This document shows, piece by piece, positions 31,039 through 50,088 of a DNA stretch of 64,000 bases. A model generated the notes under the pieces. It did no database searches. It had not been told where the DNA came from and worked only from the letters and a program-made list of their open reading frames with translations. Source of the stretch: Micromonospora tarensis (GTDB taxonomy: Bacteria; Actinomycetota; Actinomycetes; Mycobacteriales; Micromonosporaceae); the NCBI RefSeq assembly GCF_016803395.1, contig NZ_JAEVHL010000015.1, positions 1-64,000 on the forward strand. The letters are read 5' to 3'. Within the stretch, counting starts at the first letter, position 1; every line of letters begins with the position of its first letter. Position numbers and translations under genes: made by a program.

Positions 31039-31106
31039 CTCGATATCGGCGTCACGAAGAGTCCGTGCTGTCAGAGTCCCGCAGAGATCGACGCTTGGGA
31101 GATCAG

Positions 31107-33209
31107 ATGACGGACCCGGGGTCGCTGGGCGCCACCGGACTGGACGCCCGGCCCCGCCTGCGCGGCGACGTGGTCTGGCTGCCGAGCGAGGAGGGCGTCT
31201 ACGTCCGCAGCGCCCAGGCCGCGATGCTGCTGCGCGGCTCGTCGACCTACCGGCTGATGTCCACCATCAGCCCCTACCTGACCGGCGACCACAGCGTGTC
31301 GGAGCTGTGCGCGGGACTACCGAAGGCGCAGTCGGTCGCCGTCGCCAACCTGGTGCAGGCCCTGATCGATCGCGGCATGGCCCACGACTTCGCACCGCCA
31401 CCGGAAGCCGCGCTGCCACCGGCACTGACCGCGCTCTTCGCCGACCAGATCGCGTTCCTCGGCCACTTCGCCGATGACCCGGTCGCGCGATTCCTGAGTT
31501 ACCGGAGCGCCCGGGTGGTGGCAGTCGGGGCGGGCGAAGGGCTGCACGCGCTCGCTACCGGCCTGCTCCGCAACGGCCTCGGCACGCTGCGACTCTCCGG
31601 CCCCGCAGCCGACGACCCGTACCGCCGGGACATCGAGGCGGAGGCGTCCGCGATGGACGCCACTGTCGAAGTCACCGACAGCTTCGACGACGCCGACGTC
31701 GTCGTCTACTGCGCGGACGAGGCCGATCTGGCACTCGTCGCCGAACTAGCCCGACGCTGCCGGGCCGCCGGCATACGATTCCTGCCGGCCGTCCTACGCG
31801 GGCAGCGCGCGGTACTCGGCCCGTTCGCCGGCCCGGCGACCGCCGGCTGCTGGACCTGCGCCCAGCTACGGCTGGCCGCCAACGATCCACCGGCGGTGGC
31901 CGCCGACACGTGGCGGGCGATCGCGCTGGGGCCGATCAGCCCGGACCAGTCGGCAGTCACCGGAACGGTCAGCCGGATGATCGGCAACGCCGCCGCGTTC
32001 GACGTGTTCCGCGAGCTGTCCGGCGCGCTCCCGCCGGAGACCAGGGGCGCGGTGGTCGTGCAGGAAGCCGTGACCCTGGAGGCGAGCCTTTCTCGGCTGA
32101 TCGCCCATCCGCACTGCCCCACCTGTGCCGGCAGCGGCCTGGCGGCCGAGCCACCCGACCCGGACGAGTCGGAGCAGTCTCGTTACGAGCGGCTGGCCGG
32201 CCTGATCGACCCCCGGACCGGGATCTTCTCCGAGTTCACCGACGACCAACTGCGCCAGTCCCCGTTGCCCACCGGACGGTTACGGGTCGCCCCACCAGCG
32301 GGGTACGGCGGCGTGCCACGGGAATTCGTCGCCTTCGACGTCGAGACGGTCCTCCGCGCCCGGATGTCCGCCATCCGCGTCGCCGTCGGCCACTACGCGG
32401 ACCTGCTCGCCGCCGTGCCGACCCGGGTGACCCGGTCGGACGAGCTCGACGCGCCAACGATCCGGCCGGAGCAGCTCGCCACCTGGGCAGGGCTGCGGGC
32501 GACCGGGCCGGATGAGCGGACCGGCTGGATCCGGGCGATCTCGCTGGTGACGGGGGAACCCCGGTACGTACCCGCCGCAGCGGCTTTCCCGAACACCTCG
32601 TGGAACCGGGAGTGCGGCTTCGAGGTCGGCCCGGCCGGCATCGGCGTGGGTAACGACCCGACCTCGGCGGCCGACGCCGGGCTCCGCAACGCGCTCGCCT
32701 ACCAGTGCCTGGAACGCCTGCTTCGGGGCCAGGCCCCGGTCGCGGCGCTCGATCCGGCCGCGCTGGGCGACGACACCCAGCTGGCCTTTCTCCGGGACTG
32801 CCTCGGACACCTCGGTCACGCCCCGGTGCTCCGACTCGTGGATGACGGGCCGGTGCCGGTGGTACTGGCCGGGCTCGACCAGCCGGACGAGTCTGGGTGG
32901 CGGGTCGGCGTCGGCGAAGATCGCGCCGAGGCGGTCCGACACGCGCTGACGCAGTTGCTCGGCAGCGTGCAGGTCGCCACCTACCACGACGAGCCGGTCG
33001 ACCTCGGGGACCCGCTCATCGCCAACCTGCCTCCGGTGCTCACACCGACCGTCGTACCGCACGCCGAAGTCGGCCCGGCAGGTCGCGCGGCACTGCTCGA
33101 TCACCTCAACGACCACGGACACGACGCCCTGTTCGTCGCCACCACCCCGGCCGACGTCGCGGCCATCGGCGGCTACCACTGCGGACGGGTGTTGATCAGC
33201 GGTCGCTAG
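31107..33209 (+). CDS. E1-like (ThiF/Ocin-ThiF) leader-peptide-binding protein of azole RiPP synthesis
   Basis: 700 residues from 31107 (MTDPGSLGATGLD), with GGGAG nearby; the frame is open 14 codons further up. Residues ~1-95 look like a winged-helix RiPP recognition element (DVVWLPSEEGVYVRS). An E1/ThiF-like Rossmann part follows (VVAVGAGEGLHAL, about 130-240). A zinc tetrad is visible as CWTC (248/251) and CPTC (337/340). The long C-terminal part (about 380-700, e.g. SWNRECGFEVGPAG) resembles a degenerate YcaO-type domain. In LAP and thiopeptide pathways this C-protein (TbtF type) binds the leader and presents the core to the YcaO enzyme. It sits just before the precursor gene. Confidence 0.85.
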   Translation: MTDPGSLGATGLDARPRLRGDVVWLPSEEGVYVRSAQAAMLLRGSSTYRLMSTISPYLTGDHSVSELCAGLPKAQSVAVANLVQALIDRGMAHDFAPPPEAALPPALTALFADQIAFLGHFADDPVARFLSYRSARVVAVGAGEGLHALATGLLRNGLGTLRLSGPAADDPYRRDIEAEASAMDATVEVTDSFDDADVVVYCADEADLALVAELARRCRAAGIRFLPAVLRGQRAVLGPFAGPATAGCWTCAQLRLAANDPPAVAADTWRAIALGPISPDQSAVTGTVSRMIGNAAAFDVFRELSGALPPETRGAVVVQEAVTLEASLSRLIAHPHCPTCAGSGLAAEPPDPDESEQSRYERLAGLIDPRTGIFSEFTDDQLRQSPLPTGRLRVAPPAGYGGVPREFVAFDVETVLRARMSAIRVAVGHYADLLAAVPTRVTRSDELDAPTIRPEQLATWAGLRATGPDERTGWIRAISLVTGEPRYVPAAAAFPNTSWNRECGFEVGPAGIGVGNDPTSAADAGLRNALAYQCLERLLRGQAPVAALDPAALGDDTQLAFLRDCLGHLGHAPVLRLVDDGPVPVVLAGLDQPDESGWRVGVGEDRAEAVRHALTQLLGSVQVATYHDEPVDLGDPLIANLPPVLTPTVVPHAEVGPAGRAALLDHLNDHGHDALFVATTPADVAAIGGYHCGRVLISGR

Positions 33210-33346
33210 TGCGGGCGGTACGCCGGCACTGGCGACCGAACCAGCGGCACCGCTGATGACACGCGACAAACCGACGCCGCCGACAGCATCCGGATGGGCG
33301 GCGGATGACCAGCGCACCCATCGGTGAGGGACCACCCGGTAGGGCA

Positions 33347-33367
33347 CCCGTACGGGAAGGGAGGTGA
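33347..33367 (+). promoter_or_regulatory. Near-consensus ribosome site of the precursor gene, with palindrome
   Basis: GGGAGGTGA (33359-33367) is almost fully complementary to the 16S 3' end, 3 nt before the ATG, and is the strongest ribosome site in the window. It is immediately preceded by the palindrome CCCGTACGGG (33347-33356). High precursor translation is expected. Confidence 0.75.
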
Positions 33368-33370
33368 CAC

Positions 33371-33580
33371 ATGCTTACCAACCAGCTGAAAGACGAGCTC
33401 CTCCAGATCGAGGCCGAGACCTTCGAGATTCTCGACCTGACCGAGGTCGGTCAGGACCTGGCCGGTTTCCCGGACCAGGAAGCGGGTTCCTGTAGTTCGA
33501 GCTGCTCCTGCTCGAGCTGCTGCTCCTGCTCGACGTCCAGCTGCTGCAGCACCAGCTCCAGCACCTCTAGCTGCGGCTGA
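33371..33580 (+). CDS. RiPP precursor with Cys/Ser/Thr-only core
   Basis: 69 residues. The acidic leader (residues 1-39, with FEILDLTEVGQDL, like the leader motifs of thiopeptide and LAP precursors) ends PDQEAG. The core, residues 40-69, has 17 Ser, 9 Cys, 3 Thr and a final Gly: 29 of 30 positions can become azol(in)e or dehydroamino acid. Fragments: SCSSSCSCSSCCSC and the tail TSSSTSSCG. Cleavage after Gly39 is an inference. Ser is encoded by both codon boxes (nine TCN, eight AGY), so the composition is kept by selection on protein, not by a DNA repeat. Flanked by the C-protein gene and, downstream, two hairpins, then the YcaO gene. Confidence 0.9.
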   Translation: MLTNQLKDELLQIEAETFEILDLTEVGQDLAGFPDQEAGSCSSSCSCSSCCSCSTSSCCSTSSSTSSCG

Positions 33581-33615
33581 CCGCGACGGGCGGTCTCGAC
33601 CACCGCCCGTCGCGG
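33581..33615 (+). terminator. Hairpin directly after the precursor stop
   Basis: Perfect 14-bp stem CCGCGACGGGCGGT / ACCGCCCGTCGCGG with a 7-nt loop, starting on the base after the TGA. It probably acts as a partial terminator or 3' stabiliser, giving more precursor mRNA than mRNA for the enzymes. Confidence 0.75.
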
Positions 33616-33717
33616 GGCAACACCCCGACAGCACCATCGACCACAAAATACCGGCCGGGTGCCCTACTCGGTGGTCCCAACCCACTCCGCCTGATTGCCA
33701 TCCCCCGACAAGGCGGC

Positions 33718-33748
33718 GACTGGTCCGGCCAGCCCGGCCGGACCAGTC
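33718..33748 (+). terminator. Second hairpin in the precursor-YcaO gap
   Basis: Perfect 13-bp stem GACTGGTCCGGCC / GGCCGGACCAGTC with a 5-nt loop, 45 nt before the YcaO start. It is either a second attenuator or part of the leader of the biosynthetic transcript. Confidence 0.6.
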
Positions 33749-33793
33749 ATCTCCTACCAGAGCCGACCCGTCGAGATGTGAGGAGCGGTGCCC

Positions 33794-35698
33794 ATGACCG
33801 CCAGCACGGCCCAGCTCTCCACCCCGGTGGAGACGGTGACCAGGTACCTGTCGGAGCAGGCGCGCGGGCTACCGTACGACGTCGACGTCGACGTGCTGGG
33901 TCTGGACGATCGGTTGACCGGGCCGGTGTCTCCAGCGCAGCCCACAAGCCAGGTCCTGCTACCGGTACGGCTCTACGGTCACACCGCGCTCGTCGGGCCG
34001 GTCGGTTCGGACATCCCCCCGTGCGTGCGCTGCCTGGAGCGACGCTGGCAGGAGACCCGGCCGATGGCCGAGCGGCGCGCGCTCGAACGAGTGGCCGTGG
34101 CCGGCGCCAACGGGGCACACGGCGTGGGCGGCACCGGCGGTGTCGACGCGGCGGCCCTCCTACCGACCACCCTGAGCCGGCTCTGGCAGGTCGCCAGCCA
34201 CCTGCTGGCGCAGCCGCCGACCGCGCCGGGCACGGCACCGGTGTACGAGGTCACCCTCGACACCGCCGTGGTACGACGGCACACCCTGATCGCCGACTCA
34301 CTCTGCCCCCGGTGCGCGACGCCGGTCGCGGACACCGCGGAGCACGCGGATCGGCCCCTCGTCGCCCGCCCGAAGCCGGCGCCTGACCGGTACCGGCTGC
34401 GCGGCACCGAGGAGTATCGCCTGCACGGTTACGTGGACCGGGTCTGCGGCCCGCTCGGCACCTCGGCGACGCGCGTCTACCAGTTCGGCGCCACCGCCCC
34501 GGTCAGCGGACTGTTCCGAATCCGCAGCAAATACGACCTGCACGACTCCTGGTGGAGCGGCCACGCCGACAGCTATGCCGAGAGCGAACGCGCCGGGATC
34601 CTGGAGGGCCTGGAACGGTACGCCGGCCAGCAACCACGGGCCCGGACGGTAGGCGTCCACGACAGCTACGCCAACCTCGGCCCGAACGCGCTCGACCCAC
34701 GCGAGTGCGGCAGCTACCGCAGTGGTTTCTACGAGCAGTCGCACCACGCCCAGCCGTTCCACCCGGAGCTGTCGATGCGCTGGGTCTGGGGTCAGTCACT
34801 GCGCGATCTGCGGCCGGTACTCGTACCCGAACAGCTCGTCTACTACCTCGACCGGCACCGTGGGGAGGACAACTTCGTCCAGGAGTGCTCCAACGGCTGT
34901 GCCAGCGGCAGTTGCCCGGAGGAGGCCGCGCTCTACGGGCTGCTGGAACTGATCGAACGGGACGCCTTCCTCCTCACCTGGTACACGGGGCGGACCGTAC
35001 CGGAGATCGACATCCGTACGGTCCGCAGCCCCGAGGTCCAGTTCATGCGCGAACGGATCAACCTCTTCGGCTACGACGTGCGCCTCTTCGACCTCCGGAT
35101 GGACCTGCCGGTGCCGGTGGTGATGGCGGTGGCGGTACGTCGCGACGGCGGGATCGGCAACCTCTGCTTCGCCGCCGGCAGCTCACTCGACCCCGAGGAC
35201 GCGGTCCGGGCCGCGCTCTGCGAGACCGCGTCGTACGTGCCCGGCTTCACCCAACGGGTGACCGCCACCCTCGACGAGGTCCGCCCGATGGCCACCAACT
35301 ACGAGCGGCTGACCGAGCTGCGCCATCACGCGCTGCTCTACGGCCTGCCCGAGATGGCCGAACACGCCGCCTTCCTCTTCGCCGACCCGCCCCTGCGCGG
35401 CATGGCGGAGCTGTACGACGACTGGCTCGCCGAACGACCGGTCAACCACGATCTCACCGACGATCTGCGCTACGTCGTGGACCAGGTTGCGGCGCTCGGC
35501 ACCGACGTGCTCGTGGTCGACCAGACCTGCCCGGAACAGCGCCTCTGCGGGGTGCACACCAGCGCGGTCGTCGCCCCGGGGCTGCTCCCCATCGACTTCG
35601 GCTGGGCCCGCCAGCGGGCGCTGCACCATCCGCGACTGGCCACCTGGCTGAAGCGCACCCGCGCCACCGCGAACCTCCACCCACACCCCTTCCCGTGA
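33794..35698 (+). CDS. YcaO-domain azoline cyclodehydratase
   Basis: 634 residues counted from the ATG at 33794 (GAGGAG with 9-nt spacing; a GTG at 33788 is too close). An N-terminal extension has a zinc-type Cys tetrad, CVRC and CPRC (about residues 77-80 and 171-174). The YcaO domain (about 230-634) has the ATP/Mg motifs ESERAGILEGLERYAG and EEAALYGLLELIERDAF, with ALCETASYVPG, and ends with the proline-rich tail HPHPFP typical of azoline-forming YcaO enzymes. It phosphorylates the peptide amide to form thiazolines or (methyl)oxazolines at Cys/Ser/Thr. It needs the leader-binding protein at 31107 as partner. Confidence 0.93.
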   Translation: MTASTAQLSTPVETVTRYLSEQARGLPYDVDVDVLGLDDRLTGPVSPAQPTSQVLLPVRLYGHTALVGPVGSDIPPCVRCLERRWQETRPMAERRALERVAVAGANGAHGVGGTGGVDAAALLPTTLSRLWQVASHLLAQPPTAPGTAPVYEVTLDTAVVRRHTLIADSLCPRCATPVADTAEHADRPLVARPKPAPDRYRLRGTEEYRLHGYVDRVCGPLGTSATRVYQFGATAPVSGLFRIRSKYDLHDSWWSGHADSYAESERAGILEGLERYAGQQPRARTVGVHDSYANLGPNALDPRECGSYRSGFYEQSHHAQPFHPELSMRWVWGQSLRDLRPVLVPEQLVYYLDRHRGEDNFVQECSNGCASGSCPEEAALYGLLELIERDAFLLTWYTGRTVPEIDIRTVRSPEVQFMRERINLFGYDVRLFDLRMDLPVPVVMAVAVRRDGGIGNLCFAAGSSLDPEDAVRAALCETASYVPGFTQRVTATLDEVRPMATNYERLTELRHHALLYGLPEMAEHAAFLFADPPLRGMAELYDDWLAERPVNHDLTDDLRYVVDQVAALGTDVLVVDQTCPEQRLCGVHTSAVVAPGLLPIDFGWARQRALHHPRLATWLKRTRATANLHPHPFP

Positions 35699-35712
35699 GA
35701 CAGGCGTACCCG

Positions 35713-37319
35713 ATGACAGAAGAGTCCACGCAGGTCGTACGGGAGTACGCCGAGGCCGTCTTCCGGCGGTACAGCCAGCCCCTCACGCCTCCCGGCTTCG
35801 AGGTGGACTGGTCCGACGCCCCACCGAAGAACACCACCTACCCGGGCGCACCGATGCTCGCCGCACCGCGCTGGTCGGCCCGCCAGTTGGGCCGGCTGCC
35901 CGACCTGCTCGCCGCCGGCGACGACACCGACAGGCCGTGGACAGCGGCCGAGGTGAGCACGCTGGCCAGCCTCGCGTACGCGGTCCAGGAGCGGCGGGTG
36001 GCCGCCAGTTGGAACCAGGACCTGCTCACCCAGACGCACTATCCGAAAGCGACCTGGAGTCGGGGCACCGCGTCCGGCGGCGGCATGTACCCACTGGAGA
36101 TCTACTGGGTTGCCGGTGCCGGTGCCCCGACCCGCCCCGGCGTCTACCACTTCCACACCGCGCACCGGGCCTGGCAGCGATTGGCCAACGGTGACCACGC
36201 CAGCGCCATCAGTGACGCCTGCCTCGGCGACACCGGCGGACAACGGGCCGACCAGTTCCTGGTGGTCACGGTGCGGTTCTGGAAGAACGCCTACAAATAC
36301 CACAACTTCTGCTACCACGTGGTCACCCAGGACCTGGGTGCGCTGCTCGGGTCCTGGCAGCTGATCGGCCGAGGCCTCGGCCGGCAGCTGCGACCGGTGC
36401 TCTGGTTCGCCGACGAGACGATCAACACGCGGCTCGGGCTGGTCACCGAGTCGGAGAGCGCGCTGGCTGTCGTACCGTTGCCGGGGCCGCCGCCGACCGG
36501 CAATCCGCCGGCCGCGGCGGCGGTGCGGGCGGCCCGCTTCGAACGGTCCAGCCGCGCCTTCCAGCCCGAACTGCTGGCGCCTGTGCACCGGGCGACACTG
36601 CTGACCACCGAAGCACGACCGGCGGCGCTGCCGGTCGAGCCGCCACCCGCCCCGCACGGCACCGGGCTCGCCCTACCCGAACTCCCGGCCCAGCGGTGGC
36701 GGACCGACCTGAGCGCGGCGCTACGCCGCAGGCGGTCGAGCTTCGGCCAGTTCAGCCGGGGCCGCCGGCTCACCGCGGCCGAGCTGGGCGGGATCCTGCG
36801 CTGCGCCGCCGCCGGTCTCGCCTTCCCCACCGACCTGACCGGCCCGGCACCGCTCGCCCGGCTACACGCGGTGGTCAACGACGTGGACGGGCTTCCCGCC
36901 GGGAGCTACACCTACGAGCCCGCCGGGCATCGACTCACACCGGTACGGGTCGAGCCGATGGCCGGGCTGCTCCAGCGCGCCTACGAACTCAACAACTACA
37001 ACATGGAGCAGGTCGCCGCGGTACTCGCCATCTCCGGCCGGCTGGCCGAGGCGCTCGACCACTTCGGCCCGCGCGGATACCGACTGCTCAACGCGGTCGC
37101 CGGCAGCTCGGCACAGGTCACCTACCTGGCGGCGACGTCCTCGGGGTGGGGTGCGGCACCGTCCTCGGGCTGGACAACCAGGTGCTGGACGAGGCGCTCG
37201 GACTGACCGGCACCGGTCACCGAACCCTGCTGTTCACCCTGATCGGACACGACCGCCCAGCTCACGGCGGCCTCGACTACCCGGTCGCCCCGCCGACCGG
37301 CACCGCACAGCCGAGCTGA
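35713..37319 (+). CDS. SagB-type FMN azoline dehydrogenase, apparent 1-bp frameshift near the 3' end
   Basis: SagB/ThcOx-like protein with two nitroreductase-type halves: SRGTASGGGMYPLEIYWVA with KYHNFCYHVVTQDLGALLG in the first, RRRSSFGQFSRGRRLTAAEL and LNAVAGSSAQVTYLAA in the second. It would oxidise azolines to azoles. In the given sequence the frame stops at 37206 after an abnormal tail. The expected C-terminus (GCGTVLGLDNQVLDEALGL, then LLFTLIGHDRP) continues in another frame to 37319, ten bases before the next start. Restoring one G in the G-run at 37141-37151 joins both parts. The feature spans the reconstructed gene. Sequencing error, true mutation and programmed slippage are all possible; the first is favoured. 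Confidence 0.85.
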
Positions 37320-37328
37320 GGAGGCAGC

Positions 37329-40058
37329 ATGACCGTCACCGCACCCGACCGTCGTGGCCAGCGGCCCGAGTTCGCCACACCTGACAGCTTCCTGGCCCGG
37401 ATCGGCGGGCTCCCGCTGGACACCACCGAGCGGCTGGCCTTCCCCCGCACCGCGGCCTGGGCAAACCGCCTGGTCGACATCGAGGCGGAGTTGCTCGCCA
37501 CCGGCGAACGGATCGCCGATCTGCTCGCCGCCGCCGTCGCCGCCCAGCCTGCCGATTCGGCGCTGCGGACACCGCTGATCAACCTGCGCCGGGAGGTGTT
37601 CAACAACCGGCGGCCTCGCGACCCCTCGGCGGCCACCGCAGTCCTGGCGGCGGGAGCGCCCGAGGTGAGCGCGGAGTACCGGGACTGGCTGGACTCCCGG
37701 CACCGGTTCGATGACGAGCTGGCCGCCGGGGACGCCCTGTTCGCGTTGGAGTGGCCGGTCCGGCGGTCCGCGCTGCGCGATGTCGCCGGTGAACCGGCGC
37801 TGCGGCACGGGCTGCTGCTCTCCTCCCGGACCCTGGACCGCCAACTGCCCCGCTATCTTGAGGCCGGGGACGCGCCGCTGAACAAACGCGCCCGTCGGGT
37901 CGAACGCTCCCTGCTCGAGTACGTCTACCGCGCGGCGACCAAGACCAGCCCGTTCTCCACCTTCACCACCGTCTGCGAGGGGTCCTTCGACGACGGCTCC
38001 GGAGCCGCGCTGCGGCTGGTCCGTGAGCACGCCGGCGAGCAGCACCACGTCCGGCTCAACGTAGCCACGCTCGGTCGGCTGGCGAACGCGGTGATCGCCC
38101 GCGCCGACATCCGGTCCGAGCTTCCCGTCCGACTCGTCACCGGGCTGCGCTCCGGCGCGCAACGACTGTCGTACCTGCGCCGCGAGGCGAGGGCGAGCCG
38201 GACCGGTGGCGCGATGGAGCTGAGCCGGGTGCACGAGAGCCTGTTCCACCTGCCGACCAGCGAACTGATGCGGGATCTGACCGGCCTGCTCGGCAATGGT
38301 CGGACGCGGCCGCTGCGGCAGGTGGTGGACGCGCTCGTCGGGCTCGCCCCCGGCACCCGCAGCCCGACCGACGTCGAACGCTACCTCGACCATCTGCTGC
38401 GGCTGGGTCTGCTGGTGGCACCCGCGCTACGGGTGGACATCCACCATCCGGACCCGTTGGCCGGCTTCCGGTCGGCACTGCGCGACCTGGACCAGCCCTG
38501 GGCCCACCTGCTGGCCGACCGACTCGACGCGGTGGACCACCACCTCAGCGCGTACCCCGCCGCTGGCCTGCACCGGCGGCGCGACCTGCTCGACGCCGTC
38601 GGGACCGAGTTGGTGCGCGCCCATGCCGACCTCGACCAACCGGACGTCACACTGCCCGCGACACTCCTGTACGAGGACGTGGTGCTGCCCGCGCGGGTCA
38701 CCGCCGACCGGCGCTCCTGGGGCCGGCTCACCGCCGACCTGTCAGTGGTCGCCGGCGTCCTGCCGGTCTTCGACGTCCAGCTCAGCCGGCGGTTGGTCAC
38801 CAAGGGATACTTCCGCGCCCGGTACGGTGCCGGCGGGCACACTGATGACCTGCTCACGTTCGCCCACGAGTACCTGGACGACTTCTTCGACCACTTCGTC
38901 AGCAGCCAGCTGCGCCGCCGCCCGTTCGACCGGGAGAACCGGTACGTCCCGCAGGCCAACACGTTCCAGCTACCCGAGATCGACGCACTGGACGACGCGC
39001 GCGAGGCGGCCGGCCGCCTGGTCAACGCGGCATACGCGGCGCTACCGCCGGACGCCACCGAACTGGTCCTCGACGACGAATTCTTCACCGAGCTGCGCGA
39101 GCGGGTGCCCGCCACGCTCGGACCGGTCGAGGCGCACGGCTTCTTCCTCCAGTTGGCGCGTACGACGGACGGCCCGCTCGGCGTCGTCAACAAGGCGTTC
39201 ACCGGGCCGGCGCTGATGCTCTCCCGGTTCGCCCGGTGGCTCGGCGGCGACGACGGCGACCTGCTGGCCCGGGGCCTGTCCGCCGCCCAACCGCACGGGG
39301 TGGTCTTCGCCGAGCTGAAGGGGGGCCACGAGGACACCAACCTCAACCTGCACCCGGCCGCCACCCCGTACGAGCTGGTCTGTCCGGGTGACATCAGTTC
39401 ACGCCCCGCAGACGAGCAGATCGCCATCGATGACCTGGTGCTGTACGACGACCCGACCCAGGACCGACTGGTGCTCCGCTCGCGCCGGCTCGGCGTCGAG
39501 GTGGTCCCGGTCTACCTGGGCTTCCTGCTACCGATGGCGCTGCCCGAGATCCAGCAGGTGCTGATGACCTTCTCCCCCACCGGGATGGCCCCGATCGACC
39601 TGTGGGCCGGCACCACAGTGCCGCTGCCCGACCGGGGCATCGTGGGCTATCCGCGGATCCGTTACCGGGATGTCGTGCTCCAGCGACGAATGTGGAAGGC
39701 CCACCCGGACTGCCTCCCGACATCCGCCGCCGACGCGCCGGGTAGCCAGACGATGCTGGCGTGGGCCCGCTGGCGGCGCCGGCACGGGCTGCCCCGGCGG
39801 GTCTTCGTCACCCCGGACGCCCTCGGCGGGGCGGCCGGCAGCGCCCCGTCCTTCGGCACCCACAAACCGCTCTACATCGACTTCGACAGCTACTTCTCGC
39901 TGAACCTACTGACGGCCGTGGCCCGGGCCGCGGAGAACCGCCTCGTCTTCACGGAGATGCTGCCGGACCACTGTCAACAGTGGCTCACCGACCGGGACGG
40001 CGCGCACGTCAGCGAACTCGTCCTCGCATTCAACGCAACCCCTCGGGAGGCGCGATGA
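37329..40058 (+). CDS. Split LanB dehydratase, glutamylation protein
   Basis: 909 residues, the size of TbtB/GodF-type proteins that transfer Glu from tRNA(Glu) to Ser/Thr of the core. Lantibiotic-dehydratase N-terminal features: VYRAATKTSPFSTFTTVCEG (conserved Arg/Ser-Pro-Phe patch), HVRLNVATLGRL, RSWGRLTADLSVVAG, and late conserved blocks DDPTQDRLVLRSRRLGVEV and RIRYRDVVLQRRMWK. GAGGAGG lies just before the ATG. The elimination partner follows with an ATGA overlap. Together they would make dehydroalanine/dehydrobutyrine from Ser/Thr not cyclised by the YcaO enzyme. Confidence 0.92.
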   Translation: MTVTAPDRRGQRPEFATPDSFLARIGGLPLDTTERLAFPRTAAWANRLVDIEAELLATGERIADLLAAAVAAQPADSALRTPLINLRREVFNNRRPRDPSAATAVLAAGAPEVSAEYRDWLDSRHRFDDELAAGDALFALEWPVRRSALRDVAGEPALRHGLLLSSRTLDRQLPRYLEAGDAPLNKRARRVERSLLEYVYRAATKTSPFSTFTTVCEGSFDDGSGAALRLVREHAGEQHHVRLNVATLGRLANAVIARADIRSELPVRLVTGLRSGAQRLSYLRREARASRTGGAMELSRVHESLFHLPTSELMRDLTGLLGNGRTRPLRQVVDALVGLAPGTRSPTDVERYLDHLLRLGLLVAPALRVDIHHPDPLAGFRSALRDLDQPWAHLLADRLDAVDHHLSAYPAAGLHRRRDLLDAVGTELVRAHADLDQPDVTLPATLLYEDVVLPARVTADRRSWGRLTADLSVVAGVLPVFDVQLSRRLVTKGYFRARYGAGGHTDDLLTFAHEYLDDFFDHFVSSQLRRRPFDRENRYVPQANTFQLPEIDALDDAREAAGRLVNAAYAALPPDATELVLDDEFFTELRERVPATLGPVEAHGFFLQLARTTDGPLGVVNKAFTGPALMLSRFARWLGGDDGDLLARGLSAAQPHGVVFAELKGGHEDTNLNLHPAATPYELVCPGDISSRPADEQIAIDDLVLYDDPTQDRLVLRSRRLGVEVVPVYLGFLLPMALPEIQQVLMTFSPTGMAPIDLWAGTTVPLPDRGIVGYPRIRYRDVVLQRRMWKAHPDCLPTSAADAPGSQTMLAWARWRRRHGLPRRVFVTPDALGGAAGSAPSFGTHKPLYIDFDSYFSLNLLTAVARAAENRLVFTEMLPDHCQQWLTDRDGAHVSELVLAFNATPREAR

Positions 40059-41077
40059 CCAGGTGGATCAGCCTGCACATCCACTACGCCAGCAACAGCG
40101 ATCCACTGCTGTCGCAGTGCGTCGAGCCCCTGGTGTCCGAGTTGCGCGGCCGGGGGCTGCTGCGGCGCTGGTTCTTCATCCGCTACTGGCTCGAAGGTCC
40201 GCACGTGCGCCTGCGCCTGCTGCCGACGGACGAGACCGCGTCGGCCGAGGTCCAGCTCGTGGCACAGGAGGCGATCGGCGCCTTCCTCAAGCACCGGCCA
40301 GCCCTCTACGACGCGTCGACTGCCAACGCCGGTGAGGTGTACCGGAAACTGTTCCTCGCCGAGTACGGCGAGGAACAGTGGCGGGAGAGGTACGGCCAAC
40401 TGGAGGAGATGCCGCTCCGCGCCAACAACAGCGTGCACCTGGAGCCCTACGAGCCGGAGTACGACAGGTACGGCGGCCCGGCCGGCGTCGAACTGGCCGA
40501 ACGGCACTTCGAGGTCTCCAGTGATCTGGTCCTGCGGTTGCTCGCGACGACAAACATGCACGTCAGCTCGGTCCGGCTGGGCAGCTCCGCACGGTTCGCG
40601 GCGGTGCTGTGCTTCGCCTTCCTCGGCGACGCCCTGCGGGTGGCCCGGTTCTTCGCCGACTACCGCCGGTTCTGGGAGAACCTGTACCAGGAGAGCAGCG
40701 ACGCCCACCACGACCGTTTCGACGCGGGCTTCGATCGGGTGGCGGTCGGGCTGGGCGCACATCTGGCCCGGCTGCGCGACGGCAGCCGGGACTCCACCCA
40801 CCCCGGACTGACCGCCCTCGAACGCGACTGGGCTCGCCACGCGCTGCTCCTGCGGGAGGAGGTGGTCCGGCTCGCCGAGACGGGTCAGCTGGTGTTCGGG
40901 CGGCGCGGCCAGAGCGAACCGACCACCGTCAGCGACCCGGACATCGCGTTCACAGTGCTCCTCAGCTCGTACGTGCACATGACCAACAACCGGATCGGGA
41001 CGAGCATCCTCGACGAGATCTACCTGTCGTACCTGATGGAGCGGGCGTTGACCGAGGCCGAGGCGGTGACGGCATGA
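40055..41077 (+). CDS. Split LanB elimination protein (SpaB_C / thiopeptide-type)
   Basis: 340 residues, start overlapping the LanB stop. SpaB C-terminal-type domain: WISLHIHY at the N-terminus, LLRRWFFIRYWLEGPHVRLR (the conserved Arg/His patch of the glutamate-elimination site), VHLEPYEPEYDRYGGPAG and AERHFEVSSDLVL, ending with SSYVHMTNNRIG. It removes glutamate from glutamylated Ser/Thr to leave dehydroamino acids. Only one such protein exists in the cluster; thiopeptides need a second homologue as pyridine synthase. I assign elimination rather than cycloaddition; the two are homologous, so a structure comparison would settle it. Confidence 0.88.
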   Translation: MTRWISLHIHYASNSDPLLSQCVEPLVSELRGRGLLRRWFFIRYWLEGPHVRLRLLPTDETASAEVQLVAQEAIGAFLKHRPALYDASTANAGEVYRKLFLAEYGEEQWRERYGQLEEMPLRANNSVHLEPYEPEYDRYGGPAGVELAERHFEVSSDLVLRLLATTNMHVSSVRLGSSARFAAVLCFAFLGDALRVARFFADYRRFWENLYQESSDAHHDRFDAGFDRVAVGLGAHLARLRDGSRDSTHPGLTALERDWARHALLLREEVVRLAETGQLVFGRRGQSEPTTVSDPDIAFTVLLSSYVHMTNNRIGTSILDEIYLSYLMERALTEAEAVTA

Positions 41078-42333
41078 CCGTTCCCGGCCTCCACGAGCTG
41101 CCGCCGCGAGTGCGTGCGGACATCGTGTTGGGCGCCCCGTTGCGTCGGGGCGACAGCACAGTGCACTTCGTGAAGGATCCGCGTACCGGCTGGTTCTACC
41201 AACTGGGTGGGCGCGAGTTCTTTCTCCTCTCCCAGCTGGATGGACGGCAGACGAGGGCGGAGGTCGAGACGGCGTATGCGGACCGGTTCGGCCGCCGGCT
41301 CGGTTCCGCACACTGGACGGCGCTGCTCGACATGTTCCGTCGCCGACAACTGCTCGTCGAGCAGACCGAGGCCGGTGCGGTGGTCGATGACGACGTCGAG
41401 CTGGTCGAGTTGCGGGACCGCGCGGACCAGCAGCGCCGCTCGGGGCGGCGCCGGCTGTGGTACGCGCGGTTCCCGATCGTGAACCCCGACCGGTTCCTGC
41501 GCTGGCTGGCGCCGCGGCTGGGTTGGTGGTATTCGCCCTGGTTCGTGGTGCCGGCGCTGGTCGCGGCTGCCGTCTGCGTGGTGCTGGCGGTCAGCAGAGC
41601 TGGCGATCTGTACGCCGCGTCCCGGATGAACATCGGGCACCCGCTCGCCGCGGTGTCGTTCGCCACCACCTGGCTGGTGATCGCGTTGCACGAGGTCGCG
41701 CACGGGCTGACCTGCCGTCGGTTCGGCGGAGCGGCCACCGAACTCGGCGTCCTGTGGCGGTTTCCCCTGCTCACGCCCTACTGCAAGACCGACGACGTGG
41801 TGCTGTTCGCCCGCCGCCGACACCGGGTCTACACCGCCTTCGCCGGGGTCTTCGTGAACCTTGTCGCGCTGGTGCCCTTCACCGTCGGCTGGCTGCTGAG
41901 CACGCCCGGCAGCCACGCGCACGCGCTGGCCGGCTCGCTGCTGCTGTACGGCACGCTCACCGTGCTGCTGAACCTGCTGCCGGTGCTGCGACTCGACGGG
42001 TACTTCATGCTCAACCACGCGGTCGGGATGCTCGACCTGCGCCAGGAGACGTACCGGTTCTGGACCGCGCTGCTGCGCCGGCGCGGCCTCGAATCTTTCC
42101 GGGGCCGGGACCGTCCGATCCATGTGCTGTACGGGCTCACCGTCATCCTGCTTGCCGGGACGCTGTCCGTGGCAGTGCTCACGGCCTGGTACGTGAATCT
42201 CAGCCGGTGGGTCAACCCGCCGGCCGCGGTGACCCTCCTCGCCGCCGAGGCGGTCGGGCTCACCCTTCTCATCCGGTACCTCCGGCGCCGGCGCGCCCGG
42301 CTCGCCGCAGGTCAACCAGAGCAGGCCGGATGA
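41074..42333 (+). CDS. M50 (site-2-protease type) membrane metallopeptidase with PqqD/RRE-like N-terminus
   Basis: 419 residues, ATGA overlap upstream and downstream. The N-terminal ~115 residues (TVHFVKDPRTGWFYQLGGRE, FFLLSQLDGRQT) look like a PqqD-like winged-helix fold. About six membrane helices follow. The zinc site is H206-E-x-x-H210 (HEVAHGLTC) with Asp308 in LNLLPVLRLDGYF, the intact M50 pair. Clusters of this type need a leader peptidase and none other is visible, so it is the best candidate for leader removal coupled to export by the ABC pair encoded next. That role is an inference. Confidence 0.88.
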   Translation: MTVPGLHELPPRVRADIVLGAPLRRGDSTVHFVKDPRTGWFYQLGGREFFLLSQLDGRQTRAEVETAYADRFGRRLGSAHWTALLDMFRRRQLLVEQTEAGAVVDDDVELVELRDRADQQRRSGRRRLWYARFPIVNPDRFLRWLAPRLGWWYSPWFVVPALVAAAVCVVLAVSRAGDLYAASRMNIGHPLAAVSFATTWLVIALHEVAHGLTCRRFGGAATELGVLWRFPLLTPYCKTDDVVLFARRRHRVYTAFAGVFVNLVALVPFTVGWLLSTPGSHAHALAGSLLLYGTLTVLLNLLPVLRLDGYFMLNHAVGMLDLRQETYRFWTALLRRRGLESFRGRDRPIHVLYGLTVILLAGTLSVAVLTAWYVNLSRWVNPPAAVTLLAAEAVGLTLLIRYLRRRRARLAAGQPEQAG

Positions 42334-43364
42334 GCGCCCTCGGTACGGCCCCGGGCCGGACGTCCTCCGCCGCCCGCACCGCGCCGGTCATCGAAACGGA
42401 TGGGCTGACCCGGTCCTACCCGCCGGACATCCGAGCCGTCAGCGATCTGCGGCTGACCGTCAATCCGGGCGAGGTCTACGGGTTCCTGGGGCGCAACGGC
42501 GCCGGCAAGACCACCACGATGCGCATGCTGGTCGGACTGGTCCGCCCGAGTGCCGGCACCGGCCGGGTGCTCGGTCGTCCGCTCGGTGATCCGCGCGCGC
42601 TGGCCCGGGTGGGCAGCCTGATCGAGTCGCCCGCGTTCGAGCCTCACCTGTCCGGCTTGGACAACCTCCGGCTGCTGGCCCGATATCTCGGAGTCGACGA
42701 TGCTCAGGCGCACGCGGGCATCGCCGAGGTGGAACTGACCGCGCAGGCGAACCACCCCTTCCGCACGTACTCCCTGGGTATGAAGCAGCGGCTCGGGGTG
42801 GCCGCAGCCCTGCTCAATGATCCTGAACTGCTGATTCTCGACGAACCGACCAACGGGCTCGATCCGGCCGGCATGGTTGCCATGCGCGACCTGTTCCGGG
42901 CGCTCGCCGCGCGGGGGCGCACCGTGTTCCTCTCCAGTCATCTGCTCGACGAGGTCGAGCAGGTCTGCGACCGGGTCGGCATCATCCATGCCGGGCGGCT
43001 GGTGATGGAGGGGAGCCTGGCTCAGCTCCAGGCCAAGCTCGGCGGGCCGGGCCTGGTGTCGGTCCGGGCGCAGCCGGTGGAGACCGCGCTGGCCCGCCTG
43101 CGATCCGTCCCCGGCCTCAGCCCCATCCGCACCAACGGTGACCTGTTGGAACTCGAAATCCCCGGGGACCGGGCCGCGGAGATCAACGAGACGCTGGTCC
43201 TCGCCGGGGTCCGGGTCAGCGAGCTGACCGTGGCACACCGCTCGCTGGAGGATGTCTTCCTCGGTTTGACCGGCCCGACCACCAGTGCCGGGTCGCCTCC
43301 CGCCGGGCCGACGGCGCCGGGTGCGGGTGCTCGTCGTGTCGACCCGAAGGACGGTGGCGAATGA
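42330..43364 (+). CDS. ABC exporter ATPase (drug/lantibiotic-resistance type)
   Basis: 344 residues. Walker A GRNGAGKTTTM, Q-loop region IESPAFEPHLSG, signature YSLGMKQRLGVAAALL, Walker B LLILDEPTNGLDPAG and H-loop LSSHLLDEVEQV are intact. The C-terminal part is a DUF4162-like domain (about 225-310). It belongs to the CcmA/BcrA group that powers separate two-helix-bundle permeases for export or self-resistance. Overlaps both neighbours by 4 bp, inside the biosynthetic operon. Confidence 0.93.
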   Translation: MSALGTAPGRTSSAARTAPVIETDGLTRSYPPDIRAVSDLRLTVNPGEVYGFLGRNGAGKTTTMRMLVGLVRPSAGTGRVLGRPLGDPRALARVGSLIESPAFEPHLSGLDNLRLLARYLGVDDAQAHAGIAEVELTAQANHPFRTYSLGMKQRLGVAAALLNDPELLILDEPTNGLDPAGMVAMRDLFRALAARGRTVFLSSHLLDEVEQVCDRVGIIHAGRLVMEGSLAQLQAKLGGPGLVSVRAQPVETALARLRSVPGLSPIRTNGDLLELEIPGDRAAEINETLVLAGVRVSELTVAHRSLEDVFLGLTGPTTSAGSPPAGPTAPGAGARRVDPKDGGE

Positions 43365-44182
43365 CGGCACGCAGCCTACGCGGAGCGCTCTTCACGCTCC
43401 GCCGTCGACCGGCGCTCCGGGTACTCACCGCGGTCTGGGCGCTCCAGATCATCTGTTTCGTCTACCTGATCACGTACATCGTCTACCGATCCGTGCCCGG
43501 GGAGTCCCCGGACGAGCTGCGACAACTACTGACCAGTCTGCTGCCCGCCAGCGCGGACCGTACGGTGGTGGGCGCGCTGCCGATGTGGGGTGGCCCGGTG
43601 ATGCTCATCCTCGGGGCTCTGGTCGCGGGGGGCGACGAGCGGTGGGGAAGCTCCCGCACCGTACTGGCGCGTTTCGCCGACCGGACCGCGTTCCTGCTCG
43701 GCAGGTTCCTCGCGCTGGTCCTGGTGCTATTACTCCTGTCGGTGCTGACGATCGCGCTCAGCGCGCTGTGCAGCGCAGCGATCGCCGCGGCGGAGGGCGA
43801 GGCGATCCGGTGGCCCGGGCCGGGCAGGCTCGCCGTCGCGTTGGTCTCGGTCTGGTTGATCGTGACCGCGTGGGGTGCGGTCGGATTCACCCTCGCCCTG
43901 GCCACCCGCAACCTGGCCGCCGCGATCGGCATCGGGCTGCTCTGGACCCTCATGGTGGAGAACCTGGTGAACGGCCTCGGCGCAGTCATACCCCTCTTCG
44001 GCGCAGTCGGTTCGATCCTGCTCAGCACCAGCTCCGGTTCGGTCGCGGCCGCGTTGGGCGCCAGCGGATTCGGGGTGGATCCGGTGACCAGCGGCCCGGT
44101 CGCCGCCGCGGTGCTCGCCGGATACACGGTGGTCGCACTCACCACCGCTCTGGTCATCTTCCGCCGCCGCGATCTTGGCTGA
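43361..44182 (+). CDS. ABC-2-type permease
   Basis: 273 residues with about six hydrophobic segments (e.g. TAVWALQIICFVYLITYIVY, WGGPVMLILGALVAGG, LGRFLALVLVLLLLSVLTIA, VVALTTALVIF). Partner of the ATPase just upstream. Likely exports or gives immunity to the modified peptide. Last gene of the plus-strand operon; 25 bp separate its stop from that of the convergent LAL regulator. Confidence 0.9.
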   Translation: MTARSLRGALFTLRRRPALRVLTAVWALQIICFVYLITYIVYRSVPGESPDELRQLLTSLLPASADRTVVGALPMWGGPVMLILGALVAGGDERWGSSRTVLARFADRTAFLLGRFLALVLVLLLLSVLTIALSALCSAAIAAAEGEAIRWPGPGRLAVALVSVWLIVTAWGAVGFTLALATRNLAAAIGIGLLWTLMVENLVNGLGAVIPLFGAVGSILLSTSSGSVAAALGASGFGVDPVTSGPVAAAVLAGYTVVALTTALVIFRRRDLG

Positions 44183-44207: not shown

Positions 44208-47045
44208 TCAGCGATCGGCGAGCGAGACATGCCGCGCCAACGCGGCGCGGGTCGGTACACCGAGCTTGACGAAGATCCGGGCCACGTGCGACTCCACCGT
44301 CCGGGTGCTGAGGAACAACCGGGTGGCGATGGCGCGGTTGCTGAGTCCCTCGGAGACCATGACGGCAATCTCCCGTTCCCGCGCGGACAACGGGTCTGGC
44401 CGGTCCTCCCGAGAGCGGGGGTGAGCGGCGGCGAACCGCCGCTGCAGGTTGGTCGCCCGGCCCACCAGCCAGTCCGCCCCGCACCATCCGAGTCGCTGCT
44501 TGGCCACCGCGAGGGTCTGCCGGCTGCCCGGCAGGTCGCCGGCGTGATGCAGCATCGTGGCCAGGGTCACCAGGGTCTGCCCCTCCCGCAGTGGCTGATG
44601 GGTGAGCGCCGCGGAGCTGGCCGCCAGCCGGGCGGCGTCCACCGCCGCCACCAGGTCCCCGCGCTTCGCCAACAACTCCGCCCGCGCCTGCCCGACCGTC
44701 GCCGTCTCACCGCGCAACCCATTGCGCTGCGCCGACTCGGCGGCTCGGGCCAACTGCTTCTCAGCCTCGGCGAGGTCGCCGCGAAGCACCTGGGCCCGGG
44801 CCGCGAGGGCCAACCCTTCCGCGGTCGCCACCGGCACACCGTCGTCCAGTAGCAGCGCCAGCGCGGGCTCCGGTTGGCTCAACTCGATCAGTGCCGCGGC
44901 GAGCCCGACCCGGGCCATCGAATGCCACCATGGCGAGCGCAGCGGTTCGCTGACCCGCAGCTCGGCAAGGGGTGCGGCGGCTGCGGCGGGGCCATCGCGC
45001 CAGACGAGCAACGGCACCCGAATGGCCATCGCGAACCGTCGCAGCTCGTCGCTGCCCACTGCCCCGGCGATCTCCTCGGCATCCTCGGCATCACGCTGCG
45101 CCTGCCGCAGATCACCGAGCCGGCCGTGCAGGACCGCTCGCACCAGGTACAGCTCGGGCAGGACGTGGCCGCGGCCGTACCTTCGGGCGACCCGGAAGCC
45201 CCGCGCCAGGTGCCGTGGCGCCGCGTCCTGCGCCTCGCCCAACAGCTCCGTCCAGACCAGCGCCGGGACAAGGTCGATCACGTCGCGTAGTGCCCCGTCG
45301 TCGAGGCCGTCCACGGCCCACTGGGCACGGGAGAGCTGCCCGCCGGCATCGGCTCCGGACCGCCGGTCGAGCAGCCAGGCCAGGGCCAGCAGGGTGCTCG
45401 CCGCGGCGGCCATCCCACGACGACCGTCCCGCTCGGCCAACCCACCCGCCCGGGCCGCGTTGTCCGCCGCGTCCGCGAACCGTCCGGCCAGGATCTCCGT
45501 GGTCGCCAACTCCAGACGCAAGGTGGCCTCCGTGCGGGCGCCGGCGTCCTCCAACCGGGACAGTTCGCCGGACAACAACGCCCGCGCCTCGCTGACGCGG
45601 CCCAGCATCCGTTCGGTCGCCGCCAGCAGTTCGGTCGCCGCACACCGGTACCTCGGTGCCTCGCCGATCAGTTCGTGCAGGATCTGCTGGCTCTCGCCCA
45701 GACTGCCGGAGATGATCAGCGCCCGGGCCAGCGTCAGTTGCAGAGCCGCGCGGCGGTCGGCCGTGTCGCCGCGCTCGGGGATGATCCGCAGCGCGACCCG
45801 CAACCAGCGGACGCTGGTGCCGGGCGCACTGTCGAGCGCTGCCTCGGCCGCCGCCGCCAGCACCTCGGCGGCCTGTTCGGCTCCGGCGCGCGCGCAGTGC
45901 TCCAGGTGCTGCGCCTGCCGGACCGGGCCGGCGCCCTCCTCGGCCAGGTGCCGGGCCATCCGGCCATGCGCGGCCATCCGCCAGGCCGCCCCGGCGCTCT
46001 GGTAGGCGGCCGCTCGGAGCAACGGATGACGGAACACGATCCGACCGTCCGCCTGCTGGAGGATCCTCCGCCGGACGAGGCCGTCCAGGGCGGTGATCAC
46101 CACGGCCGGTGAGACCCCGGCGACCCGGGCGACGAGCGCGGGATCACAGTCCTCTCCGGCGACCGCCGCGGCCTGCACGGTCAGCCGCTCCGCGCCGGAC
46201 AGGACGCACAGCTCGGCGCTGATCAGCGCGTCGAGGGCGGCTGCGACGCGGTGGTCCGCCACCGCCGGCGCGGAGTCGGCGTCGAACACGACCTCATCCG
46301 TGCCGGCCGCGAGGATCTCCAGATAGAGGGGGTTGCCGCAGCTGACCTCGTACAACACCCGGCGTCGGTGCGGCGGGATCTCCGGGAGCCAGGCGTCAAC
46401 CGCCAACGGCGAGAGCGGACCGAGGACCAGCCGGGTCGGCACGGGCTCAGCACGGCCGAGTTGCAGGGCGAGCCGTACCGGGCACTGCCCGCTGCGGTAG
46501 GCCAGGACGAAGATGACCGGACCGTCCGCGGGGTGGCGTACCAGGTGGTCCAGAAGTTCGACGGACCCCTCGTCGGCCCAGTGCACGTCGTCGAGCACCA
46601 CGACCAGGCCGCCGCCCCCAGCCGTCTCGGTGAGCAGTTCCCGTACGGTCCGATAGAGCTGGTGACGTTCGGCGTCAAGGACGGCCGGTGCGGCGCCGGT
46701 GGTACGCCAGGTAGCGCCGACCGAGTGCGCGAGCTGCACCAGGGGCTCGCACTCGGGACGGCGTCGATTGTCGAAGTGCCGCGGTCCGTCCCCGGCCAGC
46801 GCGTCGAGGAGCAGGCCGAAGGGCAGCCCCACCTCGAACTGGCTGGCGCGGCCGTGTAGCACGGCATAGCCGCGCTCGATCGCGGTGTCCATGAACTCGG
46901 CGAGAAGTCGACTCTTCCCGATTCCGGTGTCACCCTCGACCGTCACGACAATGGAGCGACGGGGTGGTTCGGCGATTGTCTTTTCCAACAGGACGCGCTC
47001 GTCCTCACGGCCGACCAACCGATCTTGTGCGACCAATTGCCCCAT
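44208..47045 (-). CDS. LAL-type LuxR regulator 1
   Basis: 945 residues from the ATG at 47045 (MGQLVAQDRLVGRED; AGG at 5 nt); a GTG at 47087 is open but has no ribosome site. The STAND/AAA ATPase part has Walker A GDTGIGKSRLLAEF and Walker B LVVVLDDVHWADEG. A long TPR-like helical middle follows. The C-terminal LuxR helix-turn-helix is LSAREREIAVMVSEGLSNRA with TRTVESHVARIFVKLG. Large ATP-binding LuxR regulators are common pathway activators in actinomycete biosynthetic clusters. It is encoded convergent to the biosynthetic operon, beside a second LAL of the same build. Confidence 0.93.
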   Translation of the reverse strand: MGQLVAQDRLVGREDERVLLEKTIAEPPRRSIVVTVEGDTGIGKSRLLAEFMDTAIERGYAVLHGRASQFEVGLPFGLLLDALAGDGPRHFDNRRRPECEPLVQLAHSVGATWRTTGAAPAVLDAERHQLYRTVRELLTETAGGGGLVVVLDDVHWADEGSVELLDHLVRHPADGPVIFVLAYRSGQCPVRLALQLGRAEPVPTRLVLGPLSPLAVDAWLPEIPPHRRRVLYEVSCGNPLYLEILAAGTDEVVFDADSAPAVADHRVAAALDALISAELCVLSGAERLTVQAAAVAGEDCDPALVARVAGVSPAVVITALDGLVRRRILQQADGRIVFRHPLLRAAAYQSAGAAWRMAAHGRMARHLAEEGAGPVRQAQHLEHCARAGAEQAAEVLAAAAEAALDSAPGTSVRWLRVALRIIPERGDTADRRAALQLTLARALIISGSLGESQQILHELIGEAPRYRCAATELLAATERMLGRVSEARALLSGELSRLEDAGARTEATLRLELATTEILAGRFADAADNAARAGGLAERDGRRGMAAAASTLLALAWLLDRRSGADAGGQLSRAQWAVDGLDDGALRDVIDLVPALVWTELLGEAQDAAPRHLARGFRVARRYGRGHVLPELYLVRAVLHGRLGDLRQAQRDAEDAEEIAGAVGSDELRRFAMAIRVPLLVWRDGPAAAAAPLAELRVSEPLRSPWWHSMARVGLAAALIELSQPEPALALLLDDGVPVATAEGLALAARAQVLRGDLAEAEKQLARAAESAQRNGLRGETATVGQARAELLAKRGDLVAAVDAARLAASSAALTHQPLREGQTLVTLATMLHHAGDLPGSRQTLAVAKQRLGWCGADWLVGRATNLQRRFAAAHPRSREDRPDPLSAREREIAVMVSEGLSNRAIATRLFLSTRTVESHVARIFVKLGVPTRAALARHVSLADR

Positions 47046-47166
47046 CTCAGCCTGTCCCCGTTCTTCGGCCCAACGCGGGCGATCCACAGGAGAGAGGCTG
47101 CCGGTCCAACCCGGTAGCGAACATCCGCAAGACTACGCAACACAACGTCCACAGTGGTCTGACGGG

Positions 47167-50006: not shown

Positions 50007-50088
50007 TCGCACGACCTCCCCGCCAAGACCATATCGGACGGGAAGCCAATCACATCCGGGATCTTGTCGTCAGCCAGCCGCGGTGATC

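Follow-up and report, generated by a model that had tools for sequence, protein, structure and literature searches.

The first 64,000 nucleotides of contig NZ_JAEVHL010000015.1 of Micromonospora tarensis (the window) carry, at 31107-44182, an operon for a ribosomally synthesized and post-translationally modified peptide (RiPP), in which a precursor with a core built almost wholly of Ser, Cys, and Thr (S/C/T) lies among genes for both azole formation and dehydration. Our preferred reading, to which we give a probability of roughly 0.65, is that this core, one of a large S/C/T family, would likely be converted to a linear peptide carrying azoles in place of Cys and Thr and dehydroalanine (Dha) in place of the Ser preceding each of them.

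Core conservation and the predicted modifications

The precursor follows a ribosome-binding site, GGGAGGTGACAC-ATG, and translates as MLTNQLKDELLQIEAETFEILDLTEVGQDLAGFPDQEAGSCSSSCSCSSCCSCSTSSCCSTSSSTSSCG (33371-33580). Its leader is acidic with a conserved LxxLExETFEI-type motif, and residues 40-69 comprise 17 Ser, 9 Cys, 3 Thr, and 1 Gly (29 of 30 S/C/T), a composition given in a preliminary description of the locus and reproduced exactly on recount. Because a protein search returned 85 homologues at E≤0.01 among 176 candidates, the open reading frame (ORF) is not a chance one. Some of these homologues are named "thiazolylpeptide-type bacteriocin" by NCBI, a label also applied to other, thioamidated clusters.

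When cores were placed without gaps by similarity to the consensus, 83 of the 85 homologues (P0073 and P0080 were left out) shared the pattern SSSCSCSSCCSCSTSSCC(S-T)n behind diverging leaders, a grammar of S-[C/T] dipeptides plus SSCC tetrads. Each of the 13 Ser columns between columns 2 and 24 holds Ser in 75 to 83 of the 83 rows, and the non-Ser entries in them amount to 16 of 1,079 cells (10 Cys and 6 Thr). Cys and Thr, by comparison, replace one another, sometimes with Ser, at core columns 7, 15, 18, 21, 23, and 25. Mapped by parsimony onto a 38-row YcaO tree, the 13 Ser columns required no change and the 11 Cys/Thr columns required 13, Ser being the new residue in some cases; each locus was represented by its best core, with at least 16 of 20 consensus matches, and some genomes appear twice. 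The TCN and AGY codons for Ser are not interconvertible by one base change, and both occur (at least 7 of each) in 8 of the 13 Ser columns among 71 distinct core DNAs. On average, pairwise identity was 0.557 for 19-residue segments of the leader (65 rows), as compared with 0.887 for the core at the amino acid level and 0.713 at its third codon positions. Together, the mixed Ser codons and the difference between core and leader identities indicate that selection holds the core amino acids, not merely the DNA.

Because a five-membered ring can form from either Cys or Thr, and LanB enzymes do not dehydrate Cys, we infer that the exchangeable Cys/Thr positions are azoles and the fixed Ser before them Dha. 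A comparable dependence is described for goadsporin, in which Dha at S4 and S14 requires azoles at T5 and S15 (PMC5303826), and for carnazolamide, in which CcaM dehydrates Ser only if it stands before an azole (PMC10676384). Under this rule the window core has 12 Cys/Thr, 10 Ser directly before them, and 7 Ser before another Ser; S63, whose column holds T, S, and C, may be an oxazole, in which case S62 would precede an azole and be a Dha. The Cys/Thr exchange beside fixed Ser, taken with the goadsporin rule, suggests a product with 12-13 azoles alternating with 10-11 Dha. On these numbers the monoisotopic mass of residues 40-69 would fall from 2784.80 Da to about 2364.4 Da (12 azoles and 10 Dha) or 2326.3 Da (13 azoles and 11 Dha), offset according to where the leader is actually cleaved. 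The relatives and the same rule argue for modification of about 22-24 of the 30 core positions, the Ser-before-Ser residues being left unassigned.

The operon and its LanB C-like protein

Genes are ordered F, precursor, YcaO, SagB, LanB-N, LanB-C, M50, ABC ATPase, and permease, and from LanB-N through the permease all four junctions consist of an ATG overlapping the preceding stop by 4 bases. The features are as follows.

31107..33209, plus strand: F protein, E1/ocin-ThiF-like, leader-binding type (TIGR03882, 57.7 bits, cut-off 36.9; TIGR03693, partial, 88.8 bits, below its cut-off of 561.9); an alternative GTG start at 31065 is possible
33371..33580, plus strand: precursor peptide, 69 aa (85 homologues; TIGR03892 thiopep_precurs, 19.8 bits, below its cut-off of 25)
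33488..33577, plus strand: presumed core region, residues 40-69 (core placed in 83 of 85 homologues)
33581..33615, plus strand: perfect 14-bp inverted repeat with a 7-nt loop and no T-run, directly 3' of the precursor stop
33794..35698, plus strand: fused cyclodehydratase (C domain + YcaO) with C-terminus PHPFP (TIGR03604, 315.4 bits; TIGR03882, 74.5 bits)
35713..37206, plus strand: SagB-type dehydrogenase (TIGR03605, 117.2 bits; frame break near 37.13 kb)
37329..40058, plus strand: LanB-type glutamylation protein, LanB-N (PF04738)
40055..41077, plus strand: LanB C-like protein (LanB-C), glutamate-elimination type by sequence (PF14028; TIGR03891, 104.5 bits, cut-off 48.45)
41074..42333, plus strand: M50-like membrane metalloprotease, HEVAH (NF041824, 133 bits, cut-off 300; PF02163, 26.0 bits, cut-off 27.2)
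42330..43364, plus strand: ABC transporter ATPase, DrrA/gallidermin-protection like (TIGR01188, 204.5 bits, and TIGR03740, 203 bits, both below cut-offs; PF00005, 99.5 bits)
43361..44182, plus strand: ABC-2 type permease (PF12679, 31.1 bits, cut-off 27.2)

The type of LanB-C bears most directly on the product. Residues H50, R52, R54, H308, N312, and R313 are present in 19 of 19 family members and in all three thiopeptide elimination proteins compared, whereas none of three pyridine synthases has H308, the residue there being Y, Y, or F; the thiomuracin-type pyridine synthase retains H50, R52, and R313, and the reading for the two Gram-positive pyridine synthases (-2 bits) depends on a weak alignment. 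A profile of the family LanB-C scored the eliminases at 114, 110, and 79 bits and the pyridine synthases at 48, -2, and -2 bits, and TIGR03891 matched 19 of 19 members, 3 of 3 eliminases, and 0 of 3 pyridine synthases. Because a LanB-C tree with the six references had very long branches and did not separate the groups, we relied on the aligned residues and profile scores; a fold comparison, in which TbtD, PbtD, and TsrL were closest, is non-discriminating, as its list held no stand-alone eliminase such as TbtC. Judged by these residues and scores, the operon LanB-C is of the glutamate-elimination type. No [4+2] pyridine synthase was found among the nine operon proteins, and three query proteins gave no pyridine-synthase match of at least 60 bits in the 77 related loci described below. 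Without a pyridine synthase or a lanthipeptide cyclase in its operon, the product should thus not be a thiopeptide and is likely linear.

Domain and profile scans bore out each of the components that the preliminary description had named (the E1-like protein, YcaO, SagB, the split LanB, the M50 protease, and the ABC pair). The profile of the YcaO matched TruD, LynD, and MusD, and the C-terminal PxPxP of the enzyme is found in 32 of 32 full-length relatives; the best match to the LanB-N profile was 6ec7 (253 bits), which we take to be TbtB, followed by the goadsporin protein 9jhq (125 bits). HExxH is present in the M50 proteins of 27 of 27 relatives, and the M50-like protease is likely the leader-processing enzyme. 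Across the nine operon proteins, the domain scan found no acetyltransferase, LANC_like domain, DUF4135 LanMbC, radical SAM epimerase, or methyltransferase; dehydrazole and lanthipeptide classes were rejected on the absence of DUF4135 LanMbC and LANC_like. Two features were additional to the preliminary description, the SagB frame break and a degenerate YcaO-like domain ending the F protein (PF02624, 48.4 bits, residues 417-697), which was recognised in 4 of 11 F proteins scanned. Because the latter is without the EExxxxGLLELIERD stretch of true YcaO (consensus lines compared by eye), it is probably a pseudoenzyme.

From this gene content the following sequence of steps can be predicted. The F protein would recognise the LxxLExETFEI-type motif of the acidic leader and present the core to the fused cyclodehydratase/YcaO for cyclisation of its Cys, its Thr, and part of its Ser; SagB would oxidise the azolines to azoles, possibly with impairment in this strain if its frame break is real. 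LanB-N would glutamylate the Ser preceding an azole and LanB-C would eliminate the glutamate to leave Dha, the chain remaining linear in the absence of a pyridine synthase or thioether cyclase. The M50-like protease would then help to remove the leader, and the ABC pair would export the product or protect the producer. The preliminary description had anticipated a linear peptide modified at almost every residue; its azole and dehydration machinery, the elimination-type LanB-C, and the likely linear product stand, whereas modification at almost every residue is a projection.

The 60-mer after the precursor stop, which includes the inverted repeat, folds at -33.1 kcal/mol (z -4.3 against shuffles). 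Hairpins with z below -2 occur in 9 of 21 post-precursor stretches (the window plus 20 in 11 relatives), and with no more than these exceeding shuffle controls we dropped the hairpin as a general family feature; because only part of the relatives' stretches stand out, that the repeat forms an mRNA hairpin favouring precursor over enzyme message is a guess. A promoter and terminator scan found neither, including no T-tailed terminator behind the precursor. Beside the operon, on the minus strand (window 44208-50012), are large ORFs with a P-loop-like GxxGIGKS stretch, which are putative LuxR/LAL-type regulators.

Distribution of the family and alternative readings

The preliminary description proposed searches with the precursor and the YcaO. 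These searches showed that the locus is not an isolated oddity: the same gene set is found in many actinomycetes and in Ktedonobacteria, and some of the precursors already bear NCBI names. Besides the 85 precursor homologues, a scan with a YcaO alignment recovered 396 related stretches; the best 80, which make up 77 named loci, were retained (a scan of contigs with the single YcaO as query had given no match). The loci come from Micromonospora, Streptomyces, Actinomadura, Kribbella, Nocardiopsis, Saccharothrix, and Modestobacter, among other genera, and from the ktedonobacterium Ktedonosporobacter rubrisoli. Of the 58 loci of at least 20 kb, 48 have F, YcaO, SagB, LanB-N, LanB-C, M50, and ABC genes; six of the remaining ten are cut there (L099, L102, L110, L119, L129, and L143), and in the other four ABC and/or M50 was undetected (L080, L082, L105, and L127). 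Exactly one LanB-C is present in 55 of the 58, the other three being cut at that place, and 23 of the 58 have a second YcaO.

A precursor adjoins the enzymes in 47 of the 77 loci. In 28 the core is nearly frozen, matching the consensus at 16 or more of 20 residues; these come from Micromonospora, Streptomyces, Actinomadura, Acrocarpospora, Saccharothrix, Kribbella, Sphaerisporangium, Haloactinopolyspora, Microtetraspora, and Jiangella, among other genera. Others have different Ser/Cys/Thr-rich cores. No precursor was found in many of the two-YcaO Streptomyces loci, where the region is perhaps cut off or outside the filter. The precursor profile matched 47 of 300 same-family genomes and 6 of 396 genomes of a phylum sample (the M. 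tarensis genome being in both), and the weaker matches, where read, have other S/C/T-rich cores; two further precursors of the M. tarensis genome are on contig C145. The full Ktedonosporobacter loci L105 and L135 have other cores, with 9-11 of 20 consensus matches, and outside the actinomycetes a frozen-type core is present only in P0063, a protein named as from a Ktedonobacteraceae metagenome-assembled genome.

Precursor number varies, with three sister precursors in many Micromonospora loci and five to seven in Stackebrandtia-type loci (L048-L050 and L145), in which the S/C/T-rich cores are diversified, unlike those of Micromonospora. The middle of the three Micromonospora sister precursors (L039:9635-9853 and equivalents) has a different core, CSSSTSTSSCSSCSTSSCCSCTSSSCSSTS, which suggests a multi-peptide product. 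Loci with a second YcaO downstream of the ABC gene (L115, L122, L130-L134, L136, L138-L142, L144, L148, L152, L153, and L155) are from Streptomyces, plus one from Micromonospora, and the precursors of second-YcaO loci (e.g., L051:9510-9698) have a shorter, Thr-richer core. For L158, on a plasmid of Streptomyces sp. NBC_00316, the gene table lists a small minus-strand ORF (11519-11770) but not the likely precursor that it overlies, a plus-strand ORF starting at 11538. Elsewhere in the M. tarensis genome, G000:C93 (L037) has two further YcaO genes, the aligned one being 27% identical to the operon YcaO.

Whether this strain makes the product depends in part on SagB, whose frame breaks near 37.13 kb with the remaining C-terminal domain continuing in another frame to about 37319. 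An intact homologue in the close relative L038 differs in length by one base at the break in alignment, and assembly error and real decay or mutation are both possible. Also in this genome, a draft of 7.4 Mb in 532 contigs, is a paralogous sister cluster (L036; G000:C145:1-16456) with at least two precursors; its SagB, LanB-N, and LanB-C genes seem to be frame-broken, and a search up to the end of the contig found no F gene. The frame breaks in both clusters, and the presence of three precursor-like ORFs in L038 as compared with one profile match on this contig, would be expected if the cluster were decaying in this strain, with SagB broken, one precursor left, and no mature product made. We consider this unlikely, since an assembly error in a 532-contig draft gives similar small breaks in several genes, and the core and the remaining operon genes are intact and conserved. 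A less probable alternative is that only Cys and Thr are cyclised and few Ser are dehydrated, most Ser keeping a free hydroxyl or becoming oxazoles as in a microcin-like linear azole-containing peptide. YcaO enzymes often take Cys and Thr first, and seven Ser have no Cys or Thr directly after them; however, the split LanB pair is present in all 48 complete operons, LanB-C retains its elimination residues, and the Ser columns show fewer replacements by Cys or Thr, both in the alignment and on the tree, than would be expected of azole sites.

We judge it improbable that the product is a thiopeptide, in which a [4+2] cycloaddition of two Dha would close a macrocycle through a pyridine; the catalyst would be either a divergent or bifunctional LanB-C or a protein encoded at another site in the genome. 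Such a product would accord with the weak match of the precursor to TIGR03892, with the NCBI naming of relatives, with the TbtD/PbtD/TsrL-like fold of LanB-C, and with the score of LanB-C on NF045556 (104 bits, as compared to 48-53 bits for three reference eliminases). That model gives two Gram-positive pyridine synthases only 61 and 40 bits, so divergent ones can escape it, and sub-threshold matches to it (130-163 bits) lie away from the cluster in G079, G118, and G708. Nevertheless, 104 bits is far under the cut-off of 325, which was passed in one of 51 genomes and there on contigs other than the cluster's; LanB-C has residues of the elimination type, with His rather than Tyr/Phe at 308; no second LanB-C accompanies the first in the long loci that are intact at that place; and the LanB-C genes of the M. 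tarensis genome are confined to this cluster and its C145 sister. The thiopeptide class was rejected on the lack of a pyridine synthase and on the residue test at LanB-C. That the precursor is instead an unmodified Cys-rich metal-binding peptide, beside RiPP genes by chance, is barely credible despite nine Cys among 30 residues, as precursors adjoin the same enzymes in 47 loci, the leader motif is conserved, and Thr replaces Cys in relatives.

For the linear azole- and Dha-containing peptide that we prefer, export as an antibacterial is the default reading suggested by the ABC pair and the NCBI naming. For a presumed bacteriocin, however, near-identity over a 24-residue stretch in so many actinomycetes is unusual. 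It points to a single conserved target, a signalling function, or a structural role, and the product probably has one fixed function. More tentatively, and at somewhat less than even odds, the product may be an unbroken alternating Dha-azole chain, a largely conjugated oligomer in which most of the 30 residues are modified and spacer side chains are lacking, often made as two or three sister peptides. The near-identity of the S-[C/T]/SSCC grammar in many actinomycete genera and in one Ktedonobacteraceae protein, despite divergent leaders, would then reflect one conserved target or a self-assembled structure rather than an arms race. If so, five modifying proteins encoded in one operon would modify the peptide backbone at a density among the highest known, with a regiochemistry that the sequence itself would seem to spell out, Cys/Thr giving azoles and the preceding Ser giving Dha. 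The division of Ser and Thr between YcaO and LanB would also be testable on a natural spacer-free substrate with dozens of natural variants.

Comparison with known systems

The core of goadsporin, which we take to be 19 residues long, includes spacer residues, whereas that of the Micromonospora operon is S/C/T at 29 of 30 positions; the operon also differs in having an F protein and in the absence of an acetyltransferase among its nine proteins. As described, goadsporin and the spongiicolazolicins are linear azole- and Dha-containing peptides made by a fused cyclodehydratase, a dehydrogenase, and a split LanB with no [4+2] protein (PMC4603692, PMC5303826); goadsporin has six azoles, two Dha, and an N-acetyl group, and its residues are named up to V19 (PMC5303826). 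The operon has the features of the linear azol(in)e/goadsporin type, namely a cyclodehydratase and a dehydrogenase (frame-broken here), a split LanB with an elimination-type C part, and no macrocyclising enzyme. Thiopeptides such as thiomuracin, micrococcin, and lactocillin share with it a YcaO, a split LanB, and an S/C/T-rich core, and at least some of them also share an F protein, a dehydrogenase, and a resemblance in the leader. The operon is set apart from them by its single LanB-C of elimination type, the lack of a pyridine synthase, and a core that is almost only S/C/T and about twice as long.

In predicted modification density, the nearest are the dehydrazoles, of which carnazolamide, 30 residues long and hypermodified, contains eight azoles and eight dehydro residues (PMC10676384). 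Their dehydration chemistry differs, as they use a DUF4135 LanMbC dehydratase together with a radical SAM epimerase and a methyltransferase (PMC10676384). A 2015 survey of TOMM clusters distinguishes thiopeptide, goadsporin, and coryneazolisin groups (PMC4603692), the coryneazolisins (Cox et al. 2015) being clusters with lanthipeptide-like dehydratases and no [4+2] protein, for which that survey describes no product (PMC4603692). The operon core was not met in the passages of the survey that were consulted (PMC4603692). The preliminary description had not recognised the product among known azole RiPPs, and our text searches with core and leader strings agreed in matching no paper on the peptide; one match to the core string was discarded as unrelated, being a bridge code and not a sequence. 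No product with this core was found among the papers that topic searches of the open-licence PMC literature listed, although a description in a subscription journal, for example in a thiopeptide genome-mining survey, could exist. Among known systems goadsporin is the most similar in its working, and thiopeptides share most of the enzymes but need a pyridine synthase.

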